Made by a program: the position numbers and the translations under genes. Shown here piece after piece: positions 1 through 9,464 of a stretch of 64,000 bases of DNA. The notes beneath the pieces are model-generated. The model had not been told where the DNA came from, did not search any database, and saw only the letters and a list, made by a program, of their open reading frames with translations. Source of the DNA: Psychroflexus halocasei (GTDB lineage: Bacteria; Bacteroidota; Bacteroidia; Flavobacteriales; Flavobacteriaceae); NCBI RefSeq assembly GCF_900107595.1, contig NZ_FNQF01000001.1, positions 62,001 through 126,000 of the forward strand, in the 5' to 3' direction. Position 1 is the stretch's first letter, and every line of letters starts with the position of its first letter.

Positions 1-801
1 TCTGCCAGCGAACTCCTAAAACGCATCACCGCAGAAAAGAAGCGACTCATTGATGAGAAGAAAATTAAGAAAGAAAAGCCCTTGCCAAAAATTACCGAAG
101 ACGAAAAGCCTTTTGAGTTGCCTGAAGGGTGGGTTTGGTGTAGGTTGATGGAACTTTTACTCTACTCCGATGCAGGCAAAAGTCCAAACTGTGAAAAAAG
201 ACAGGTTAGTGGTAAAGAATGGGGTGTTCTTACTACCACTTCAATACAAAAAAACAGATTTGATGAAAATAAAAATAAAGTCCTTCCGGCAAGTTTTAAA
301 ATTAATAAACAGCAAATAGTAAAATCAGGTGATATACTTATAACAAGAGCTGGCCCTATTAACAGAACAGGTATAGCTTGTAAAGTCGATAAGATAAATT
401 ACAATCTAATACTTTCTGATAAAACAATTCGGCTAAAATATATAGAAAACACTTTAGACCCTGATTTTGTTGTTACAGCATTAAACAGTCAAAAAATAAG
501 GAGATTATTATTAAATAAAATGATTGGAATGGCTTCTAGTCAAGTAAATATTTCTCAAAAAAATATAAAAAGTATATTTATTCCCCTTCCACCCCTAGAA
601 GAACAAAAAGCCATTGTCAAGATTGTGGATGAGTTGATGGCGTATTGTGATGGCTTAGAGCGCGACATAGAGCAAAGGGACAGCTTACTTGAAGACTTGA
701 TGGCGAGTTGTTTGGTGGAGATGGAGGGTGATGCTTCTGCTGATGAAGAGTTGGGGATGGTAGCTGAAAGTGGGGATGAGTATAAAAGAAATATCAAATA
801 A
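1..801 (+). CDS. hsdS: Type I restriction enzyme specificity subunit HsdS (5' end outside window)
   Basis: HsdS gives a type I restriction-modification complex its DNA target. The reading frame is open from base 1, so the gene starts before the window and no internal start need be invoked. The visible part begins with a Lys/Glu-rich helix typical of the spacer between the two target recognition domains. The entry signature PFELPEGWVW of the second recognition domain follows. Near the C-terminus is PLPPLEEQKAIV, the hallmark that leads into the second conserved helix (DELMAYCDGLERDI). The last 30 residues are acidic. The stop codon is only 8 bases before the first reverse transcriptase gene, so the two may be co-transcribed. 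HsdM and HsdR are not in the window and probably lie to the left. The family call is firm; the DNA target cannot be read from sequence. Confidence 0.93.
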   Translation, partial: SASELLKRITAEKKRLIDEKKIKKEKPLPKITEDEKPFELPEGWVWCRLMELLLYSDAGKSPNCEKRQVSGKEWGVLTTTSIQKNRFDENKNKVLPASFKINKQQIVKSGDILITRAGPINRTGIACKVDKINYNLILSDKTIRLKYIENTLDPDFVVTALNSQKIRRLLLNKMIGMASSQVNISQKNIKSIFIPLPPLEEQKAIVKIVDELMAYCDGLERDIEQRDSLLEDLMASCLVEMEGDASADEELGMVAESGDEYKRNIK

Positions 802-809
802 AATAATAA

Positions 810-2276
810 ATGTTAGACCAATCATTTTCATCTAAATCATTTCAAGAAATTTTCGATAAAGAAAATCGAAAAGGAACTAATATTGAAGAAAGATACAAAG
901 ACGACTTTGCAGATTCTATAGCTAGAGTTGGGGAATTAAAAAACATTAGGAAACAAATACAACATGAAAAAGATTTTGACGCAAAAAAGTTGCTTTATGC
1001 TGAAAAGAAAAAATTAAAAAAAGAAAGAGATACACTTGTTTCGGATGTTTTAGATAAAATTGCAGATGAAATTAATTCGCATATTATTAACTTAAAATTA
1101 GGGGGGAATTATGGTGGACAGAGTTACGTGTTTGAAAAAAATATTCAGAATTTTTTTATTTCGAAAAAAATTCAAGACAATATAAACAAAACATATAATG
1201 TAAAACAATCTTCAAGATACGCCATTTTAAGTCAATTAATAAACTTATTAGAAGACAACTTTCCAAAATATGTTATTCGTACAGATATTAAAAGTTTTTA
1301 CGAATCTATTCATCAAAAGAAATTATTGGACAAAATAGACAATGACTACTTGCTGAGTATAAAAACAAAAAAATTTATCCATCAAATTTTTACAAGTTAT
1401 AATCATTTAACTGGACAAATAAATCCAGAAACAGCTAAAGGTGTTCCTAGAGGTATTGGCATTAGTGCCTATTTATCTGAACTTTTTATGAGAAGCATTG
1501 ATAACAAAATTAAGGAACTTGATGATTTAGTGTACTATGCTAGATATGTAGATGATATAGTCGCTATTTTCATTCCTAAATCTAAAAATATTGAACCCGT
1601 TCAACTAAAAGATTATAAAACAAAGCTAGAGCATTTAATTACAAGCAAAGGACTTACTTTGAATGTTAGTAAAACAAAAGAATATAATCTTTTACAGGGT
1701 CTTAAATTTATAAGATTTGAAGATAGCACAAGAAATTTTAAACCAAAAACAATTAATTATTTGGGCTATGAAATAGGTAGTATTAAAAATGGAAAAAAGT
1801 ATAATTTATGCACAAGACTTTCTGATAATAAAATCAATAAATATTTCAATAAAATAAAGTTATCATTTCAGCATTTCGAAAAGAAAAGAAAACACAATAG
1901 AAAGGATGCTTTTAAATTATTATCTGCTCGAATCAATTATCTCACTTCAAATACAAAATTGAGAAACAACAAGGATAAAGTTTTTGTTGGTATTTATTTT
2001 TCAAATCCATTTTTGAATAATGATGTGTCTCTAGAAAGATTACAAAAAAGACTCAAATGGTATATAAGTAGAGCTGGACTAACAACTGATGAAAAGCAAA
2101 TAATGCTTAAATATTCTTTTACTGAAGGATTTAAGAAGAAAAAGTTTCAAATATTACCTTTAATAAATAAAAAATATAAGAGCCATAATAGAAAACGTAA
2201 TGATGTAAATAACCAAAATAATGCTGGGATATTACAATATGGGATTACGGAAATTAATTCAATTTGGAAAAGATGA
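810..2276 (+). CDS. drt3a: Defence-associated reverse transcriptase, probable Drt3a (UG3-like)
   Basis: This 488-residue protein has a reverse transcriptase palm domain. Motif A is RTDIKSFYESI with catalytic Asp159. The motif B region is KGVPRGIGISAYLSE (about 210-224). Motif C is YARYVDDIV, with the catalytic YVDD at 246-249. A charged helical N-terminal region of about 100 residues precedes the palm, and a basic C-terminal region of about 200 residues follows it. There is no intron maturase or HNH domain, so it is not a group II intron enzyme. It overlaps the next gene, a second and different reverse transcriptase, by 13 bases. That tandem arrangement in a defence island is the signature of DRT type 3, in which UG3 and UG8 enzymes act together with a noncoding RNA. 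The 3a/3b assignment rests on gene order and relative size and is less certain than the reverse transcriptase call. Confidence 0.75.
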   Translation: MLDQSFSSKSFQEIFDKENRKGTNIEERYKDDFADSIARVGELKNIRKQIQHEKDFDAKKLLYAEKKKLKKERDTLVSDVLDKIADEINSHIINLKLGGNYGGQSYVFEKNIQNFFISKKIQDNINKTYNVKQSSRYAILSQLINLLEDNFPKYVIRTDIKSFYESIHQKKLLDKIDNDYLLSIKTKKFIHQIFTSYNHLTGQINPETAKGVPRGIGISAYLSELFMRSIDNKIKELDDLVYYARYVDDIVAIFIPKSKNIEPVQLKDYKTKLEHLITSKGLTLNVSKTKEYNLLQGLKFIRFEDSTRNFKPKTINYLGYEIGSIKNGKKYNLCTRLSDNKINKYFNKIKLSFQHFEKKRKHNRKDAFKLLSARINYLTSNTKLRNNKDKVFVGIYFSNPFLNNDVSLERLQKRLKWYISRAGLTTDEKQIMLKYSFTEGFKKKKFQILPLINKKYKSHNRKRNDVNNQNNAGILQYGITEINSIWKR

Positions 2277-4546
2277 GAAGGAAAACAGGACATAATATAG
2301 GATACAAGAAAGAAAGAGTTGTGCTGTCAGACATATTACCTTATGAAGTGCCACCATTTTTTTCAAATAGACATTTTTATAATTTTTTGGTCAAAAACAA
2401 GGTTACTATTAATGAAGATAAAAGGACAATTCAATTTAAAAAAGACAATTCTGGAGTACTAAAGATGTTAATACAAACTCTTTTTGGTATTAGTAAAAGT
2501 ACGAGTTTTGTTAGTGATACGAGCTTTGATTATTTTAGATTTAGTGAGAAAATGTTTCCAAAGATTTTTCTTACAATCCCTTTTAAATTTAAAATAACAC
2601 ATAAAAATAAAGACTACAGAGAATTGACCGTCATCCACCCAATTAATCAACTTTATTTAGTCGGGTTTTATGATAAGTATAAAAATACAATTCTATACAA
2701 TACAAAATTAAGCAGATTTTCATTAAGAAAACCCAATAAAGTTTCATCATTAAAATACTATAAAGACAATACCAATAAAAAGAAAAAATCTAAGAATCAA
2801 GATATAGAAATAATTGAAACGACGGATAAAGAATATACAAGTTTAAAAACATTCTTTTCTTATCAGAAGTATAGTAATATTTATGAGTTTTATGAATCAT
2901 ACGAATATCAAAGAGCTGAGAAACGTTTTGATAATTTATTGAAATTTGATGTTTCTAGATGCTTTGACAGTATCTACACACATACCCTTTCTTGGGCATT
3001 AACCAACAAGAAAATTGTGAAAGATAATATAGGAACAAATAATGCTACATTTGGAGGTAAGTTTGATAGAGCAATGCAACAAATGAACTATAATGAAACA
3101 AACGGTATTGTAATTGGACCAGAGTTTTCAAGAATTTTTGCTGAACTAATTTTACAAAGAATAGATAAAAATGTTGAAAAAGAACTGTATAAAAAAGGTT
3201 ATAAATACAAAGATGATTATGATGTATACAGATACGTAGATGATTTTTTCGTTTTTTACAATGATGATAAAATTAGTTCAGAGATTTTGAGCTTATACAA
3301 AATCAAGTTACAAGAGTACAACCTGTTTTTTAATGATTCAAAAACTGATGTTATTTCTAAACCTATTATAACAGGTATTACAATTGCAAAAGAAGAAATA
3401 AGAAAATTGATTGAACATTCAATGATTTTTCAATTTTATGATTCAGATGTAAAAAAACAAATCAGTTTAAAACATTATACAGCCAAAGATATTATTACCA
3501 ACTACAAAGCTATTTTGGCGAAAACAGAGACAAATTACAAAGACCTACAAAATTACTTCTTGGCAATTATTTTCAACAAGCTAAAAGGTTTAATAAAAAA
3601 GATACAGGATGAACAAGAATCCCTGCTTCACTTCTATGTTCAAAAGCGTGATTTAGAAGCCAAATTAAATGATGCGAAGGAAAATTTAGATGAAATTCTT
3701 GAAGAAATAAAAAAACAAGAGAAAGAGTTAAAATCATACAGTAATCAATTATTCAAAAACATTAATGAAATAATTGAATTAACATTTTTTATTTATTCCG
3801 TTTTACCAAGGGTAACCTATTCAATAAAAGTCTGCCACATATTATTTAGAATTATTGACTTTATTAAAAATCAAGAACGGACAAAACAAAGTTATATGGT
3901 AAATGTCCAAAGTGCAGAAGAAGATGAATTAAAATATATAGCATTTGATTTCGATAAGAAACATCAAATTTTTAAAAGAATTTATGATGGTATTTCATTA
4001 GTGTTTAAAAAAAGTATTTCATCTGAATATGCTGAAATTGAAACGTTGTATTTATTACCAATCATTAATGAATTAGGAGAAAATTATCGATTTCAAGAAG
4101 AATTAATCAATAAACATTTCAGAATTTACCAAAAAGACAGCAATGGCAACAAAGCCATTAATACTAGTTTGAACTACTTTACAATAATTTCATTATTGAA
4201 CTATATTAACGAAGACTCTAATCAAATATATAAAGAAATAAGAAAAGATATACAGAATATTATTATTGAAAAATTTAATAACTTTGAAAAGAATAATGCT
4301 GAGGATATTTTCTTATTAATAGATGTACTTACTTGTCCATACGTAGGAAGTAGTGATGCAGAAATTCAGGATTTTAGGCGAAAAATTTTAGACAAAATAA
4401 AGTTTTTCGATATAAATACGAGTATTGTAGATAAAAACAGTATAATTGAAAAAATTGAAAACTATGCTTCTGATTGGTTTTACAGTTGGAGAGAAAATGA
4501 TTTAGGAAAAGAACTAAACACTAAACGCGGTCATAGTGTTTATTAA
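2264..4546 (+). CDS. drt3b: Defence-associated reverse transcriptase, probable Drt3b (UG8-like)
   Basis: This is a second reverse transcriptase, 760 residues long and different in sequence from its neighbour. Motif A is KFDVSRCFDSIYTHTLSWAL with catalytic Asp229. Motif B is NGIVIGPEFSRIFAELIL. Motif C is YRYVDDFFVF, with YVDD at 324-327. A strongly charged coiled coil follows at about residues 446-500, then a roughly 260-residue helical C-terminal domain with no recognised motif. Its start lies inside the end of the upstream gene (13-base overlap), which implies translational coupling and a stoichiometric pair. In DRT3 as I recall published work, Drt3a copies an ACACAC stretch of the system's RNA into poly(GT), and Drt3b makes poly(AC) without a nucleic acid template. 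Which gene has which role here is inferred. Confidence 0.75.
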   Translation: MEKMRRKTGHNIGYKKERVVLSDILPYEVPPFFSNRHFYNFLVKNKVTINEDKRTIQFKKDNSGVLKMLIQTLFGISKSTSFVSDTSFDYFRFSEKMFPKIFLTIPFKFKITHKNKDYRELTVIHPINQLYLVGFYDKYKNTILYNTKLSRFSLRKPNKVSSLKYYKDNTNKKKKSKNQDIEIIETTDKEYTSLKTFFSYQKYSNIYEFYESYEYQRAEKRFDNLLKFDVSRCFDSIYTHTLSWALTNKKIVKDNIGTNNATFGGKFDRAMQQMNYNETNGIVIGPEFSRIFAELILQRIDKNVEKELYKKGYKYKDDYDVYRYVDDFFVFYNDDKISSEILSLYKIKLQEYNLFFNDSKTDVISKPIITGITIAKEEIRKLIEHSMIFQFYDSDVKKQISLKHYTAKDIITNYKAILAKTETNYKDLQNYFLAIIFNKLKGLIKKIQDEQESLLHFYVQKRDLEAKLNDAKENLDEILEEIKKQEKELKSYSNQLFKNINEIIELTFFIYSVLPRVTYSIKVCHILFRIIDFIKNQERTKQSYMVNVQSAEEDELKYIAFDFDKKHQIFKRIYDGISLVFKKSISSEYAEIETLYLLPIINELGENYRFQEELINKHFRIYQKDSNGNKAINTSLNYFTIISLLNYINEDSNQIYKEIRKDIQNIIIEKFNNFEKNNAEDIFLLIDVLTCPYVGSSDAEIQDFRRKILDKIKFFDINTSIVDKNSIIEKIENYASDWFYSWRENDLGKELNTKRGHSVY

Positions 4547-4687
4547 AAATATTTGGGCAACGTATTCAAGAAATTGAGTACACTCTTAAAAGCCATAATT
4601 TATAGTTTATTTTGGTAACTATCACACACAAGCCCTTAAAACCTTTTAAAGGTTTTGAAAGGCGGAGGTAGAGTCTCTGCCTTTTTT
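4547..4687 (+). ncRNA. Candidate DRT3 noncoding RNA containing (CA)4
   Basis: This gene-free stretch directly follows the second reverse transcriptase. It contains CACACACA at 4623-4630, in otherwise AT-rich sequence, and ends in a strong intrinsic terminator. GGGC at 4555-4558 can pair with GCCC at 4632-4635, closing a domain that holds the CA repeat near its 3' side. A near-palindrome, AAAACCTTT/AAAGGTTTT, lies at 4638-4656. DRT3 systems need an RNA that carries an ACACAC template, so position and motif both fit. I see no consensus promoter inside the stretch, so the RNA may be processed from the operon transcript. The 5' boundary is a guess. Confidence 0.55.
4658..4687 (+). terminator. Intrinsic terminator after the reverse transcriptase pair
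   Basis: A 10-bp stem (AAAGGCGGAG paired with CTCTGCCTTT, one G-U pair) with a 7-base loop is followed by a run of six T. It would define the 3' end of the candidate DRT3 RNA. Confidence 0.85.
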
Positions 4688-4892
4688 AGTTTAAGTAAAA
4701 TTTAATCTTATTTAATTAGAATTTGGAAAAATACTTAAGATACTGATTTATAGTAATTTTTTATTTAATTAGCTTTAAAAAACCATGATTTCAACCCAAC
4801 TCTCCATCAACGACTTTTTAAAAGCACAAAAAATTGCAATTTATTATTCCAGTCTATCAGCTGAATTATGATTGGACAAACGAGTATTGAAA

Positions 4893-4967
4893 ATGGAGAA
4901 TTACTTTGCGTATATCACAACCAATAAAAAGGTGCTAAAAGTTAGCGTAATGCTAAATTTAACCTAA
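4893..4967 (+). pseudogene. GIY-YIG nuclease remnant
   Basis: A 24-codon frame starts MENYFAYITTNKKVLKVSV and then stops. It resembles the first residues of GIY-YIG endonucleases of the MENYFVYI-TNK---VLYVGVTNNL type, but the YVG motif has become KVS and the rest of the domain is missing. Another short frame just upstream (4784-4870, starting MISTQLSINDFLK) has no recognisable origin. I read the stretch as the debris of an insertion or deletion event between the DRT3 locus and the next operon. Confidence 0.5.
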
Positions 4968-5003
4968 AAGTGAAATTAATTTGTAAATTAACCTAAAAGT
5001 GAA
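4959..5003 (+). promoter_or_regulatory. Direct repeat, probable operator of the toxin-antitoxin operon
   Basis: The 16-mer TTAACCTAAAAGTGAA occurs at 4959-4974 and again at 4988-5003, so the copies start 29 bases apart. The second copy overlaps the GTG start of the toxin-like gene. Just upstream, 4934-4956 contains GCTAA/TTAGC/GCTAA in alternating orientation. Autoregulation by an XRE antitoxin normally uses such repeats; the role here is inferred from position. Confidence 0.45.
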
Positions 5004-5523
5004 TAGATTTGCACGAGTAAAACCCTTATTCAAATTCAAACAGGTTGCCTATTATTCTGTTTGTTTAGAAGAAGATGAACAAACGCTCTACGAAGAGTTT
5101 GTGGAGAAACATACAAATGAAAATTTGAAAAAATTATATCATGTGCAAAAATGGCTACAAGTAATTGGGAAAAAGTATGGAGCACAAGAACGTTTTTTTA
5201 GAAATGAAGCACAATATGCAGATGCATCAGCTCTACCACCTATTGGTAAAGACCGTGAACCTTATTATATAGAGTTTGGAAAAAAGAAAGCAAATAATTT
5301 AAGACTGTATTGTTTGAGAGCAAATCCCAAAGTTGTTTTTCTTTTTAGTGGAGATTTGAAAACAGCAAAAAAAGCACAAGATTGTCTAAACGTAAAACCA
5401 CATTTTGAATTGGCAAATGCGCTTACAAAAGCAATAGACCAAGCCTTTCGCGACAAAGAAATAAGATGGATTGAAGAAGATGCACTAATTACCTGTGATG
5501 AAGATTTTATTTTAGAGTACTAA
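4999..5523 (+). CDS. Putative RelE/HigB-type toxin of a toxin-antitoxin-chaperone operon
   Basis: This 174-residue soluble basic protein contains the block NLRLYCLRANPKVVFLFSGD followed by KTAKKAQDC. I associate that block with phage Gp49-like/HigB-type RNases encoded beside XRE antitoxins. It starts at GTG; the frame is closed at 4984-4986 and there is no ATG nearby. It is followed after 12 bases by an XRE-type regulator, and that gene by a SecB-like gene. The order toxin, HTH antitoxin, chaperone matches known HigB-HigA-SecB-like (TAC) systems. No catalytic residue can be assigned with confidence, so the toxin function depends mostly on context. If correct, it would cleave mRNA at the ribosome and stay silent while the antitoxin is present. 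Confidence 0.6.
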   Translation: MNRFARVKPLFKFKQVAYYSVCLEEDEQTLYEEFVEKHTNENLKKLYHVQKWLQVIGKKYGAQERFFRNEAQYADASALPPIGKDREPYYIEFGKKKANNLRLYCLRANPKVVFLFSGDLKTAKKAQDCLNVKPHFELANALTKAIDQAFRDKEIRWIEEDALITCDEDFILEY

Positions 5524-5535
5524 AAATTAAACACC

Positions 5536-5907
5536 ATGAAATTTCCAGAAGAAAACAAACTAAATAATTGGTTAGAAGATAATAAGAACCCCGAAATTGA
5601 CCGTTTTATAGAACGAAACCTTGAAATTACACAACAAGTTTGTGTAATTCTAAAAAATAGGGGGATTAAGAAAACTGAATTTGCTAAAATGTTGGGCAAA
5701 AAGCCATCAGAAGTTTCTAAATGGTTGTCAGGTACACATAACTTAACGCTTAAAAGCATTACTAAAATGGAAATTGCCTTAGGTGTTGATTTAATGAATC
5801 CTGAACCAAACTATATTTACTTAGGTAAGATTGAAGGGAATTTAGAAAGCTATGAAACAGCTAAAGATAATTACGAAATAAGTCACTATACACAAGAAGC
5901 AGTTTAA
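5536..5907 (+). CDS. XRE-family helix-turn-helix antitoxin (HigA-like)
   Basis: This 123-residue protein has a Cro/C1-type helix-turn-helix at about residues 44-92: KKTEFAKMLGKKPSEVSKWL, followed by GTHNLTLKSITKMEIALG. The SEVSKWL segment is the recognition helix and NLTLKSITKMEIALG the following helices. The charged N-terminus (about residues 1-40) and the roughly 30-residue C-terminal tail (SYETAKDNYEISHYTQEAV) flank the DNA-binding core. In chaperone-dependent systems the antitoxin C-terminus carries the chaperone-addiction tail, which could apply to this tail. Its stop codon overlaps the next start by one base (TAATG), so the products are probably translationally coupled. It is likely to repress the operon at the direct repeats around 4959-5003. 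Confidence 0.8.
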   Translation: MKFPEENKLNNWLEDNKNPEIDRFIERNLEITQQVCVILKNRGIKKTEFAKMLGKKPSEVSKWLSGTHNLTLKSITKMEIALGVDLMNPEPNYIYLGKIEGNLESYETAKDNYEISHYTQEAV

Positions 5908-6344
5908 TGAGTAAAAGTACGATTATACCTGAAAAAATTAAGCTAAATCACATTGAAGTAATTAACACTTACATCAATGACGATACTATCAACAAAAATT
6001 TAAATTTTGAATTTAATATTGCCCACAACACAAAGCATAATTTAGAAGATCAGAGTATTAAAATTGAACTCTTTATAAATTTACTTTCTTCCAAAGAAAT
6101 TGGGGTTAAGTTTCATATCGACTTTTATTTTCAAATTGAAGACTTACAAAATCATTATGAATTAGATAAAGACAAAAATATTCCTGTTTTTTCTGGTCAA
6201 TTTATAGCTACTTTGCTAGGTATTAGCTTTTCTACATCTAGAGGAATAATATATCAACAACTACAAGAGACAAATTTTAGTAAACTCATTCTTCCCGTAG
6301 TTTCTCCCTCTAAAATGCTAGATATGAGAATTGAAGATGAATAA
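5907..6344 (+). CDS. SecB-like chaperone of a toxin-antitoxin operon
   Basis: This 145-residue protein has alternating beta-strand patterns in its first 95 residues and then a block reading FIATLLGISFSTSRGIIYQQ and FSKLILPVVSPSKML. This matches the C-terminal layout of SecB folds: a helix ending in an Arg-rich turn, a short connector, then a Leu-Pro-Val-hydrophobic-Pro strand (in SecB, FPYARECI to FPQLNLAPVNF). Bacteroidota SecB-like proteins carried by toxin-antitoxin loci show the same pattern. A solitary SecB-like gene one base after an XRE antitoxin gene points to a chaperone that protects the antitoxin. It could instead be an unrelated DUF with a similar fold; confidence is moderate. Confidence 0.6.
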   Translation: MSKSTIIPEKIKLNHIEVINTYINDDTINKNLNFEFNIAHNTKHNLEDQSIKIELFINLLSSKEIGVKFHIDFYFQIEDLQNHYELDKDKNIPVFSGQFIATLLGISFSTSRGIIYQQLQETNFSKLILPVVSPSKMLDMRIEDE

Positions 6345-6356
6345 AAATCTTTAATA

Positions 6357-6535
6357 ATGAACCTTTCATCACTAAAAGCCATAAAACAACTACTTAGCCC
6401 ACTAAGAGAAATAATTTTAAAGGCCATTGAAAATTTAAACCTCATTTTTGTAAACTAGGTTTTGTAGATGTAATTATTGATTCGAGACTTAATGAAAAAT
6501 TGGCGGATGATATTTTTGAATTGATATTAAATTAA
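6357..6535 (+). pseudogene. Small frameshifted gene remnant, unknown
   Basis: An ATG-initiated frame runs 33 codons (MNLSSLKAIKQLLSPLREII...) and stops at 6456-6458. The coding pattern continues in another frame as GFVDVIIDSRLNEKLADDIF to a TAA at 6533-6535. Joined by one frameshift the product would be about 60 residues. I do not recognise it. The stretch from 6345 to 6753 carries no intact gene. Confidence 0.4.
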
Positions 6536-6556
6536 ATATTAAAAACCCCAAAGATT

Positions 6557-6752
6557 ATGGAATCAACTTACAAAAGGCTTATCGATATAACTTTAGAGGA
6601 GCTAAAAAACGGTAGATTTCATTGTAAATAACTACAGACGAGTATTTAAGTTACGTATTAGATACTGTGCCTGATGAAGAAAATTGAATTATTTTTTCAC
6701 ATTACCTAAATCGACAAAAAGTCAAGATGGTGATGATGAAATGCCATTTTAG
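6557..6752 (+). pseudogene. Decayed gene ending in an SSB-like acidic tip
   Basis: Three coding-looking pieces lie in different frames: MESTYKRLIDITLEELKNGR from 6557, TDEYLSYVLDTVPDEEN in the middle, and SQDGDDEMPF followed by TAG at 6750-6752. The last piece resembles the C-terminal acidic tip of single-stranded DNA binding proteins, but no OB fold is visible upstream. It is broken by stops and frame changes, so it is probably debris of a mobile element gene. Confidence 0.35.
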
Positions 6753-6753
6753 G

Positions 6754-7167
6754 TCAAGTTCTAAAAACCACTTCACCAGTCTCCAGATCAAAGAAAGGAT
6801 ACTGTCCAAGAGGATTTGGTTTCATGTTATTGATTTTATGAAAGCGCTTTAACTTTCCTTCAAGACGTCGTAAATCTGCCTTTGTGGCTGTCTTATTCTC
6901 TTCTTTAGTTAATAGACTTTTTATGAGATCTGCTGCTGTGGTTCCTATAGCGGCATTACCAATACCCGCAACACTTATTTTCTCTACTTCTAGTTTCTTT
7001 AAATCCTGAACTGGTTCTCTTGAAGCTGAAGATTGACTTGCTCTGAGTCCTTTATAAGATTGGTGATGTCTAACTCTGCAGGATGTACTACAAAACTTTT
7101 GTACTTTTCTTCGTTTAGGAATAAACTCTGCTTTACAATACTTACAGGTGTAATGATGGTTTTCCAT
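6754..7167 (-). CDS. Small zinc-finger protein of the mobile element
   Basis: This 137-residue protein starts with a four-cysteine knuckle, CKYC at 9-12 and CSTSC at 26-30, of the kind often found in small DNA-binding or recruitment proteins. The middle section is Ser/Ala-rich. A charged helical stretch (TKADLRRLEGKLKRFHKINN) and the conserved-looking tail NPLGQYPFFDLETGEVVF follow. It lies on the integrase strand and 44 bases downstream of the next small gene, so it is probably co-transcribed cargo of the same element. I do not recognise a specific family; it could be an accessory recombination or regulatory factor. TTTTAC motifs at 7178 and 7189 just upstream echo the nearby phased array. 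Confidence 0.65.
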   Translation of the reverse strand: MENHHYTCKYCKAEFIPKRRKVQKFCSTSCRVRHHQSYKGLRASQSSASREPVQDLKKLEVEKISVAGIGNAAIGTTAADLIKSLLTKEENKTATKADLRRLEGKLKRFHKINNMKPNPLGQYPFFDLETGEVVFRT

Positions 7168-7542: not shown

Positions 7543-8862
7543 TTACTTAAATAAATGTGAGTAATCCTCTGGTAATTCAGCATCGATATCTCTTAAATAC
7601 TTCTCCAAAGCTGTCATGGTTGAATGACCTGTGATCAGCATGAGTTTACTTTTGGTTTCATTGGGAGAATTTTCCTCTCTCAGCTTTCTGTATAGTTTAG
7701 TAATAAATGTGTGTCTAAAGCTATATAAGCCAAAGTCCTTCCCTAATCCAAAATGATCTTTAACGCCTTTAAAGCGTTTAGAAAACTCAGTTCTACGGTT
7801 TGTTTCAGCAGCACTCCACTCTTCCCCAATCCCAAAGCGTCCAAAGAGTAATGCATCGGCAGGGAGTTTGGATAGGTCGGGAATATTTTTAAGCAAAATA
7901 TCGGGGATAATTTTGATTTTTACTGGCTGGTTTTTAGCCTTAACGTAAAGCTTCTTATCTTTTAAATCCACATCCTTAATCCTTAGTCTACAGACTTCAA
8001 TGGGTCTAAGGAAATTATAACTAATAAACCTAATAAACAGATGTAAAGTTGGATCGTGTTTTTCCAGGTAGGTGTTGATTTTCTTTTCCTGATCTGGTTT
8101 ATAAGTTTTATTTCGCTTAGGAACGGTCTTTAATTTTGGTATGGATTGGACAAAATTGGTAGTGATAATTTCATTATCTTCTAGTAATTGAAATAAGGAA
8201 GCAATATCTGTCCTGGAATTGTTTCGATTTCTAGCACTGGTCTTTTGCACAATACTGTTTAAGTATTGGTTAACGGTCTTTTTGGTGATGCTTGTAATCG
8301 GCTTATCAAATAGGTTTTCATTACGTAGCCATTTTTCAAATAAACCAATTCTACTTTTATATTGAACGTATGAGTTTTTATTCATCATATGCTCTTTCAT
8401 TGACAGTCCAAACTTGAAGGCCTCATCGATACTCATCGCTTTTTCCTCAGGTTCCAAAGGCACAGGTGTTGGATGAGGCTGAGTTACAGAAGTTGATTGA
8501 GTCTGCGTTTTGGGTTTGGATTGCGTTTTAGCTGGTTCTCCTTGATCTGAAAACAGCTTCGCTTCCAGATCGCTGTTATCTTTATAGGGATTAAATCCAA
8601 GTTCTAACAGCTTTGAAAGGGCTTCTCGCATCGTTCTTAGAAAAGAATAGCGCTCTCGCTTAGTTTTAAACTGATTCGCACCAGCCTTGATAAAAGGCTG
8701 TTTTTTAAGCTTACCTGTTTCAGGGTGACGAAAGGAATAATAAACAAACCAGCTTTTACTTAAAGCTTCTTTTTTCTTAAGAGCTGGAAGTTTGGACCAA
8801 TTAGAAATATCTACACCACCTGTATAAATTTTGGGTTCTGAATAGTCTAGTTTCAAAGACAA
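7543..8862 (-). CDS. Tyrosine recombinase (integrase) of the genomic island
   Basis: This 439-residue site-specific recombinase has the usual three parts. The N-terminal arm region is followed by a Gln/Thr/Pro-rich linker at about 115-145. A SAM-like core-binding domain spans about 150-245 (MNKNSYVQYKSRIGLFEKWL, then KKTVNQYLNSIV). The C-terminal catalytic domain carries Arg in FLRPIEVCRLR, Lys in the KAKNQPVKIK beta-hairpin, Arg-His in YSFRHTF, His in GHSTMTALEKYL and Tyr in the same box. The first residue of the HxxR motif is Tyr, as in many phage-type integrases. The only in-frame start I find is TTG. The gene lies about 530 bases from an initiator tRNA gene whose 3' end is duplicated in between, so it most likely integrated the island there. 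Confidence 0.9.
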   Translation of the reverse strand: MSLKLDYSEPKIYTGGVDISNWSKLPALKKKEALSKSWFVYYSFRHPETGKLKKQPFIKAGANQFKTKRERYSFLRTMREALSKLLELGFNPYKDNSDLEAKLFSDQGEPAKTQSKPKTQTQSTSVTQPHPTPVPLEPEEKAMSIDEAFKFGLSMKEHMMNKNSYVQYKSRIGLFEKWLRNENLFDKPITSITKKTVNQYLNSIVQKTSARNRNNSRTDIASLFQLLEDNEIITTNFVQSIPKLKTVPKRNKTYKPDQEKKINTYLEKHDPTLHLFIRFISYNFLRPIEVCRLRIKDVDLKDKKLYVKAKNQPVKIKIIPDILLKNIPDLSKLPADALLFGRFGIGEEWSAAETNRRTEFSKRFKGVKDHFGLGKDFGLYSFRHTFITKLYRKLREENSPNETKSKLMLITGHSTMTALEKYLRDIDAELPEDYSHLFK

Positions 8863-9388: not shown

Positions 9389-9391
9389 TAG

Positions 9392-9464
<73 letters not shown>

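Follow-up and report, generated by a model that had tools for sequence, protein, structure and literature searches.

Evidence that a CA repeat downstream of drt3b in Psychroflexus halocasei belongs to a candidate DRT3 template RNA

Two adjacent reverse transcriptase genes of Psychroflexus halocasei are followed by a short stretch of DNA ending in a terminator, and the question arises whether this stretch encodes an RNA, and whether the CA repeat which it contains is copied into DNA. The locus lies in a segment of 64,000 nucleotides of contig NZ_FNQF01000001.1, referred to here as the window. In Escherichia coli DRT3, a non-coding RNA located downstream of DRT3b carries ACACAC in a loop, and this sequence templates the synthesis of poly(dT-dG) by DRT3a; the synthesis of poly(dC-dA) is protein-templated, as stated in the parts of the published account considered here (PMC13174585). 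A first-pass annotation of the window had stated the templating role of ACACAC, correctly so according to the same parts of that source. The relevant genes and the candidate RNA of the window are as follows:

810 to 2276, plus strand: drt3a, 488 amino acids, an RNA-templated kind of reverse transcriptase, matching PADLOC PDLC03768 (E 4.8e-106), Pfam RVT_1 and chain 9z6y_A (E 3.2e-21)
2273 to 4546, plus strand: drt3b, 757 amino acids from the ATG at 2273, of the protein-templated kind, matching PADLOC PDLC03784 (E 4.4e-178); alignments A1 and 26cz
4547 to 4687, plus strand: candidate DRT3 non-coding RNA, of putative extent (fold z -4.31, block conserved in nine close loci)

The genes overlap by 4 nucleotides, both frames are open, and YVDD is present in each translation, at Y321-D324 in Drt3b. 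The first-pass annotation had assigned the pair to DRT3, which is borne out by the PADLOC matches and by the homology of both proteins to solved chains deposited as Drt3a and Drt3b (9z6y, 26cz); the locus is a typical member of the published DRT3 system. In a scan that confirmed 451 genome stretches, of which the 80 best were kept, the closest Drt3b relatives occur in Ochrovirga, Flagellimonas and a Zunongwangia MAG, at 81-85% identity. We take these three to be Flavobacteriaceae. With E. coli DRT3 (UG3 + UG8), the window shares the two adjacent reverse transcriptases with a non-coding RNA after drt3b, an ACACAC that is located in a loop and flanked by a stem-loop, and the counterparts of E22, R71, R241 and the terminal tyrosine, as far as the published account was considered (PMC13174585). 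In all likelihood, positions 4547-4687 are the template RNA of an antiphage system of the DRT3 type, in which Drt3a would copy CACACACA and Drt3b would supply the other strand. DRT3 with a downstream ACACAC RNA is known from E. coli in the parts of that report considered (PMC13174585); comparison of loci adds to this the breadth of its occurrence, a compact RNA architecture and a putative pseudoknot.

The repeat itself is a poor witness. The window holds one copy of CACACACA and 1.32 are expected from shuffles, so that the string alone proves nothing and is not significant by itself; the case rests on position and conservation. Loci were therefore collected by means of the Drt3b protein only, and the CA repeat played no part in their selection. 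They were drawn from genomes of the order to which the window belongs, plasmids, the best 80 of the 451 confirmed genome stretches, a choice which biases the set toward relatives of the window, and 31 viral contigs. From 124 sequences (the window, L001-L004 and L031-L149), 12 were left out, namely the duplicates L001, L003 and L062 and the nine loci L141-L149 with tblastn scores below 185 bits, and the resulting set of 112 loci includes the window. Redundancy is high, and 70 of 108 RNA stretches remained after a similarity cut.

In 109 of these 112 loci, C and A alternate over 6 or more nucleotides of the sense strand within the 300 nucleotides that follow the drt3b stop codon. The controls yield far lower counts: 5/112 on the opposite strand of the same 300 nucleotides, 3/106 at 600-900 nucleotides downstream, 4/97 upstream, and, inside drt3b, 3/112 in the last and 4/112 in the middle 300 nucleotides. 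The drt3b frames of the three loci lacking the run (L133, L136 and L137) are interrupted; there, ACACAC is found 242, 260 and 259 nucleotides past the end of the protein alignment, which is about 20 nucleotides less when counted from the stop codon. Five loci outside the 112, L150-L152 and the E. coli loci L155 and L156, likewise carry a CA run after drt3b. The runs, which alternate by definition, are 6-10 nucleotides long in the 108 loci tabulated, 7 or 8 being commonest. The first-pass annotation had named the lack of a conserved CA repeat in homologous loci as a refuting outcome, and for this group the repeat is conserved. Its distance from the stop codon varies: the repeat starts 77 nucleotides past it in the window, 124 and 235 nucleotides past it in the chromosomal E. 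coli loci L155 and L156, and 42 nucleotides past it in the plasmid-borne E. coli locus L032, none of these three being equated with the published locus.

The elements proposed for the window, all on the plus strand, are:

4555 to 4558, plus strand: 5' strand of helix P1, GGGC, paired with 4632-4635 (minimum-free-energy fold, nine close loci)
4562 to 4581, plus strand: hairpin P2, 4562-4569 with 4574-4581 (minimum-free-energy fold)
4582 to 4586, plus strand: 5' strand of the putative pseudoknot, ACUCU, proposed to pair with 4670-4674 by analogy with compact RNAs
4602 to 4622, plus strand: hairpin P3, 4602-4607 with 4617-4622, abutting the 5' side of the repeat (comparative evidence)
4623 to 4630, plus strand: CACACACA, proposed template of Drt3a (position read exactly, conserved across Drt3b loci)
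4632 to 4635, plus strand: 3' strand of P1, GCCC (minimum-free-energy fold, nine close loci)
4638 to 4656, plus strand: hairpin P4 (minimum-free-energy fold, RNAalifold on alignment A6)
4658 to 4684, plus strand: terminator hairpin P5, followed by a U run; its loop, 4668-4674, holds the 3' strand of the proposed pseudoknot

The coordinates which the first-pass annotation had given for CACACACA, GGGC and GCCC are exactly these. The minimum-free-energy fold of 4547-4687 reaches -39.4 kcal/mol (z -4.31), which none of 200 shuffles equals. Both the GGGC/GCCC helix and the 3' hairpin form in this fold, and CACACACA is left unpaired; P3 is absent from it. A block after drt3b, 141 nucleotides long in the window, is common to nine close loci (the window and L039-L046), in which the segments of P1-P3 and of the pseudoknot were set by eye. 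The pairing of GGGC with GCCC, put forward as a possibility by the first-pass annotation, is found in the fold and is kept in this group as part of a closing helix of five pairs, with 8-9 of the nine loci paired at each position; the outermost pair is absent in the window, and the middle pair is G-C in five loci, U-A in three and C-G in one. P3 is paired in 8-9 of the nine loci at each of five positions, one of its pairs varying between G-C, A-U and G-U. P2, paired in 4, 4, 8, 5, 8, 9 and 4 of the nine loci at its seven positions, is not well conserved in the register chosen.

Terminator-like sites number three between 3900 and 5000, against 0.2 expected. Two of them are overlapping plus-strand versions of the P5 hairpin (4657-4685 and 4664-4684), and the terminator which had been proposed to end the RNA is thus in place after CACACACA; the third lies on the minus strand within drt3b. 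When RNAalifold was applied to the nine close loci, only P4 and P5 were returned, with changes on both sides at 9 of 16 pairs (in A6, at 4/5 pairs of P4 and 5/11 of P5); P1, P2 and P3 were not returned from this alignment, in which MAFFT had misplaced the gaps of that region.

Covariation can be followed further in loci with compact RNAs. Alignment A5 comprises 33 of the 71 loci with a repeat less than 70 nucleotides downstream, hand-picked for alignability. With the structure named by hand, 89.6% of its cells are paired, versus 36-51% when the structure is slid, both-sided changes occur at 24 of 28 pairs, and the covariation score is 0.561 versus 0.285 in shuffles and 0.09-0.26 when slid; on one other measure, further pair types, 50 of 500 shuffles did as well. 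Without a structure named by hand, RNAalifold returned from A5 the helix P1, the terminator stem and a hairpin located between this stem and the repeat, with both-sided changes at 18 of 21 pairs, and did not return the hairpin before the repeat. By eye, the very compact RNAs of L051, L052, L057 and L119 have gaps in place of this hairpin (A4 and A5), which is therefore not universal.

A model built exclusively from other clades, R1, has its sole match in the 64 kb window at 4586-4688, a weak one of 14.4 bits (E 0.078 when the window is searched by itself) in a different register of P1. When R1 was run over 88 sources outside A5, the 22 matches with E <=0.01 were all located where the RNA is expected; at E <=10 the matches numbered 47, four of which lie elsewhere (L031 at 7655, L048 at 6818, L089 at 7002 and L104 at 9355). 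A crude swap test of 70 loci had a weak outcome: P1 of 14 loci paired with its own partner within the top 5% of swaps, including 2 of the 20 loci with a repeat at least 90 nucleotides downstream. The covariance analysis which the first-pass annotation had suggested as a check thus shows a covarying closing helix, and its RNA assignment is supported by a position, a CA repeat, a closing helix and a terminator which are conserved with compensatory changes.

The boundaries of the RNA were also considered. An extension into the coding sequence of drt3b was rejected, synonymous changes not being depressed in the last 15 codons within the clade of the window (0.31 and 0.46, other bins being 0.16-0.51 and 0.27-0.59; codons were counted back from the stop, with gaps unchecked). 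Eight loci of alphaproteobacterial type show a synonymous dip at the end of drt3b, 0.31 versus 0.43-0.66. As for a promoter of the RNA inside drt3b, 12 sigma-70-like sites were counted on both strands, versus 7.3 expected, a count which says little about such a promoter. A permissive Rfam search of positions 1-7000 gave six matches, none at its gathering score; one, to RefA9 (29.2 of 49 bits, minus strand), overlaps the terminator.

The compact RNAs point to a further element. In the loci of A5, the terminator hairpin has a loop which can pair with the segment lying immediately within P1, and five of the seven pairs of this putative pseudoknot show both-sided changes. The pairing was evaluated by a swap test of the 12 nucleotides after P1 against the loop, in the 33 rows of A5 and in 25 further loci (alignment A8, hand-picked from the R1 match list, in which 43 sources are matched in place), aligned with a model that does not include the pseudoknot pairing; loops too similar to the own loop were omitted. 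A helix of at least five pairs is formed in all 58 aligned compact RNAs, and such a helix is not rare by itself. The own loop scored 16.9 versus 10.7 for swapped loops in A5, and 14.9 versus 9.2 in the 25 loci; it ranked in the top 5% of swaps in 21/33 and 17/25 (38/58), and in the top 20% in 30/33 and 23/25 (53/58). In the nine close loci, four of the five window pairs are formed in 9/9 and the fifth in 7/9; these pairs hardly vary within the clade, so that for the window itself the pseudoknot is suggested by analogy. The plasmid-borne E. coli locus L032 and the Yersinia locus L118 show the same pairing. In the crude test, the own pseudoknot pairing reached the top 5% in 21 of 70 loci, a weaker outcome than that of the narrow swap test, which is confined to compact loci. 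The candidate RNA of the window, of about 140 nucleotides with its terminator-loop pseudoknot, differs in this respect from loci with a repeat at least 90 nucleotides downstream, where the signal was 0/20. This group did not include the E. coli loci L155 and L156, the repeats of which are likewise at least 90 nucleotides downstream. Because its loop pairs with the 5' segment, the 3' terminal hairpin is probably also a structural element of the RNA fold. A description of a DRT3 pseudoknot was not found in the literature searched, which does not show it to be unpublished; the putative pseudoknot offers a concrete RNA element to mutate and to seek in the solved complex.

On the protein side, E. 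coli Drt3b is reported to select A and C by a gate of E22, R71 and R241 (PMC13174585, in the parts considered). In the window these residues correspond to E25, R116 and R287, according to alignment A1 and to the alignment with 26cz, where they were counted at chain positions 130, 179 and 349, equal to 22, 71 and 241 plus a constant of 108. The 26cz alignment stops short of the C terminus; Y757, the final residue of Drt3b and invariant in the 10 rows of A1, is equated with Y666 on the basis of its position at the C terminus, and a role in priming would follow by analogy. Among the 108 of 112 loci with a Drt3b of more than 600 amino acids, the E22 position holds E in 101, D in 6 and R in one (L004, the N-terminal part of whose Drt3b is on another contig), and R occupies the R71 position in 107 and the R241 position in 108. 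The terminal tyrosine is aligned in 107/108, and a tyrosine is among the last four residues in 108/108; L082, the sole locus without an aligned terminal tyrosine, also ends in one. Within this locus set, template and gate are conserved together, and with the terminal tyrosine kept alongside them, the mechanism worked out in E. coli would extend to Bacteroidota and other groups.

By analogy with E. coli DRT3, binding of the RNA, its copying, the resulting products and defense at the window locus can be pictured as follows. Drt3a would bind the RNA and copy CACACACA, very probably the template for repetitive DNA, between hairpin P3 and the closing helix P1, slipping back at each pass to give poly(dT-dG). 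Drt3b, primed on its C-terminal tyrosine, would produce poly(dC-dA) without a nucleic-acid template, its active-site glutamate and arginine picking A and C alternately. The two strands would anneal to repeat duplex DNA, the accumulation of which during infection would arrest the cell. As a DRT3 system, the locus would also be expected to show antiphage activity and to form a 6:6:6 complex. We infer in addition that P1 and the terminator-loop pairing keep the template in a defined loop and set the 3' boundary of the RNA.

What is observed in the window and its relatives comprises the genes, the anatomy of the RNA, its conservation and its covariation, and it is against these observations that other explanations of the stretch have to be weighed. 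It could be no more than the 3' untranslated region of the drt3ab messenger with its terminator, and CACACACA a chance repeat: operons normally end in a terminator, and 1.32 copies of CACACACA are to be expected in 64 kb of such composition. Chance, however, does not account for a CA run in 109/112 loci when controls give 3-5 per roughly one hundred, nor for helices that stay paired via compensatory changes, and we consider this explanation extremely improbable. It is also conceivable that enzymes and RNA have parted ways, the locus being a relic or giving another product, with the RNA present and the enzymes no longer acting as in E. coli. With two open frames, YVDD and the gating residues in place, and the same RNA kept by relatives that are 81-85% identical in protein, this account has very little probability.

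The remaining alternative accepts the RNA and denies the template: the RNA would be a scaffold or regulator of both enzymes, and the CA repeat a protein-binding site. Structure is indeed conserved along with the repeat, and a review, in the portions considered here, credits the RNA with holding together the published complex as well (PMC13314766). In E. coli, however, mutations of ACACAC abolish both poly(dT-dG) and defense, and purified DRT3a yields product from dGTP and dTTP only when it is given the RNA, as reported in the parts of PMC13174585 considered. A scaffold in place of a template is thus very unlikely, and a scaffold role can be compatible with the template role. The template RNA of a DRT3 system remains the explanation which we prefer, and related systems provide it with a context. 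DRT10 likewise combines a reverse transcriptase with a non-coding RNA giving tandem-repeat DNA; the parts of its description considered mention no second reverse transcriptase (PMC12632851), whereas the window has Drt3b. DRT9 also pairs a reverse transcriptase with a non-coding RNA and gives a repetitive product, but is described, in the parts of the two reports considered, as a single enzyme making poly(dA) (PMC12489045, PMC13213688).

The first-pass annotation had also recommended the location 3' of the second gene as a guide to the RNA in other genomes. It is a good guide, as the 109/112 loci illustrate, but not a universal one, exceptions being L154, L175 and the pair L143/L187. No CA run of 6 nucleotides follows the Drt3b-like gene in L175, L176, L141, L143 and L177, and in L154, a DRT3-like locus of Bacteroidota, the sole run there, CACACA at +124, falls within the reading frame that follows. 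Candidate RNAs in other places are:

L154, 2005-2131: candidate upstream RNA, just 5' of the first ATG (about 2130) of the Drt3a-like frame 2103-3443
L175 (Pediococcus plasmid), 3730-3988: ACACAC antisense to the Drt3b-like gene and on the same strand as drt3a
L143, 3782-3961, and L187, 3040-3218: antisense candidate RNA between the reverse transcriptase genes, a hairpin and then ACACACATCATCGGC

The 127 nucleotides of the L154 candidate fold strongly (z -5.58; z -2.65 for a version of 202 nucleotides); the candidate is closed by GGGCGAGG/CCTCGCCC, with ACACAACACA, of period 5, beside the 3' strand in the place of the CA template. In L175, the Drt3a-like and Drt3b-like genes are divergent, and the ACACAC between them lies in a long predicted closing helix. 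L143 and L187 are related (53% and 56% protein identity), and in both, as well as in L177 and L176, the folding energy of the antisense strand is lower than that of the sense strand, a comparison made without shuffle control; in the equivalent region of the antisense strand, L177 has ACACAC, and L176 and L141 have only ACACA. In viral contigs, no relative of the Drt3b-like protein of either L154 or L175 was confirmed. The Drt3a-like protein of L154 had seven weak viral matches and, among 294 genomes of its class, matched only its own at E 1e-20; no close relatives of the L154 candidate emerged from the searches.

These candidates are leads, consisting of single loci or pairs without covariation. 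They nevertheless make it conceivable, if rather doubtful, that one DRT3 RNA core, made up of P1, the adjoining CA template and, in compact RNAs, the pseudoknot, has been kept while the RNA gene moved among lineages. Its sites would lie after drt3b in the majority of the loci collected, 5' of the Drt3a-like gene in L154, and, in the divergent group of L143/L187, L177 and L175, antisense and adjoining the start of the Drt3b-like gene. If the RNA gene did move, some DRT3 RNAs would escape searches at the location typical of E. coli. Six divergent Drt3b-like proteins all have the gate residues E, R and R, and in L154 these residues are unchanged; as L154 keeps them and yet has ACACAACACA, template and protein gate may not always be matched, and the outlying loci offer natural test cases of whether such a match is obligatory.

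Several features were noted in the surroundings of the genes. In the window, a type I restriction specificity domain lies 5' of drt3a (1-801), the three genes of the PADLOC candidate system PDC-M64 (models A, B and C) lie 3' of the RNA at 4999-6344, and a phage-type integrase gene (7543-8862, minus strand) is found near a tRNA-Met gene (9391-9464, minus strand). Given the integrase and tRNA-Met, the DRT3 locus may be part of an integrated island. In the chromosomal E. coli loci L155 and L156, the drt3 genes adjoin a phage polarity suppression gene, with ogr/Delta-like genes also present in L156, and an integrase-domain gene and ssrA close to the drt3 genes in L155; these neighbors are, to our eyes, reminiscent of P4-like satellites.
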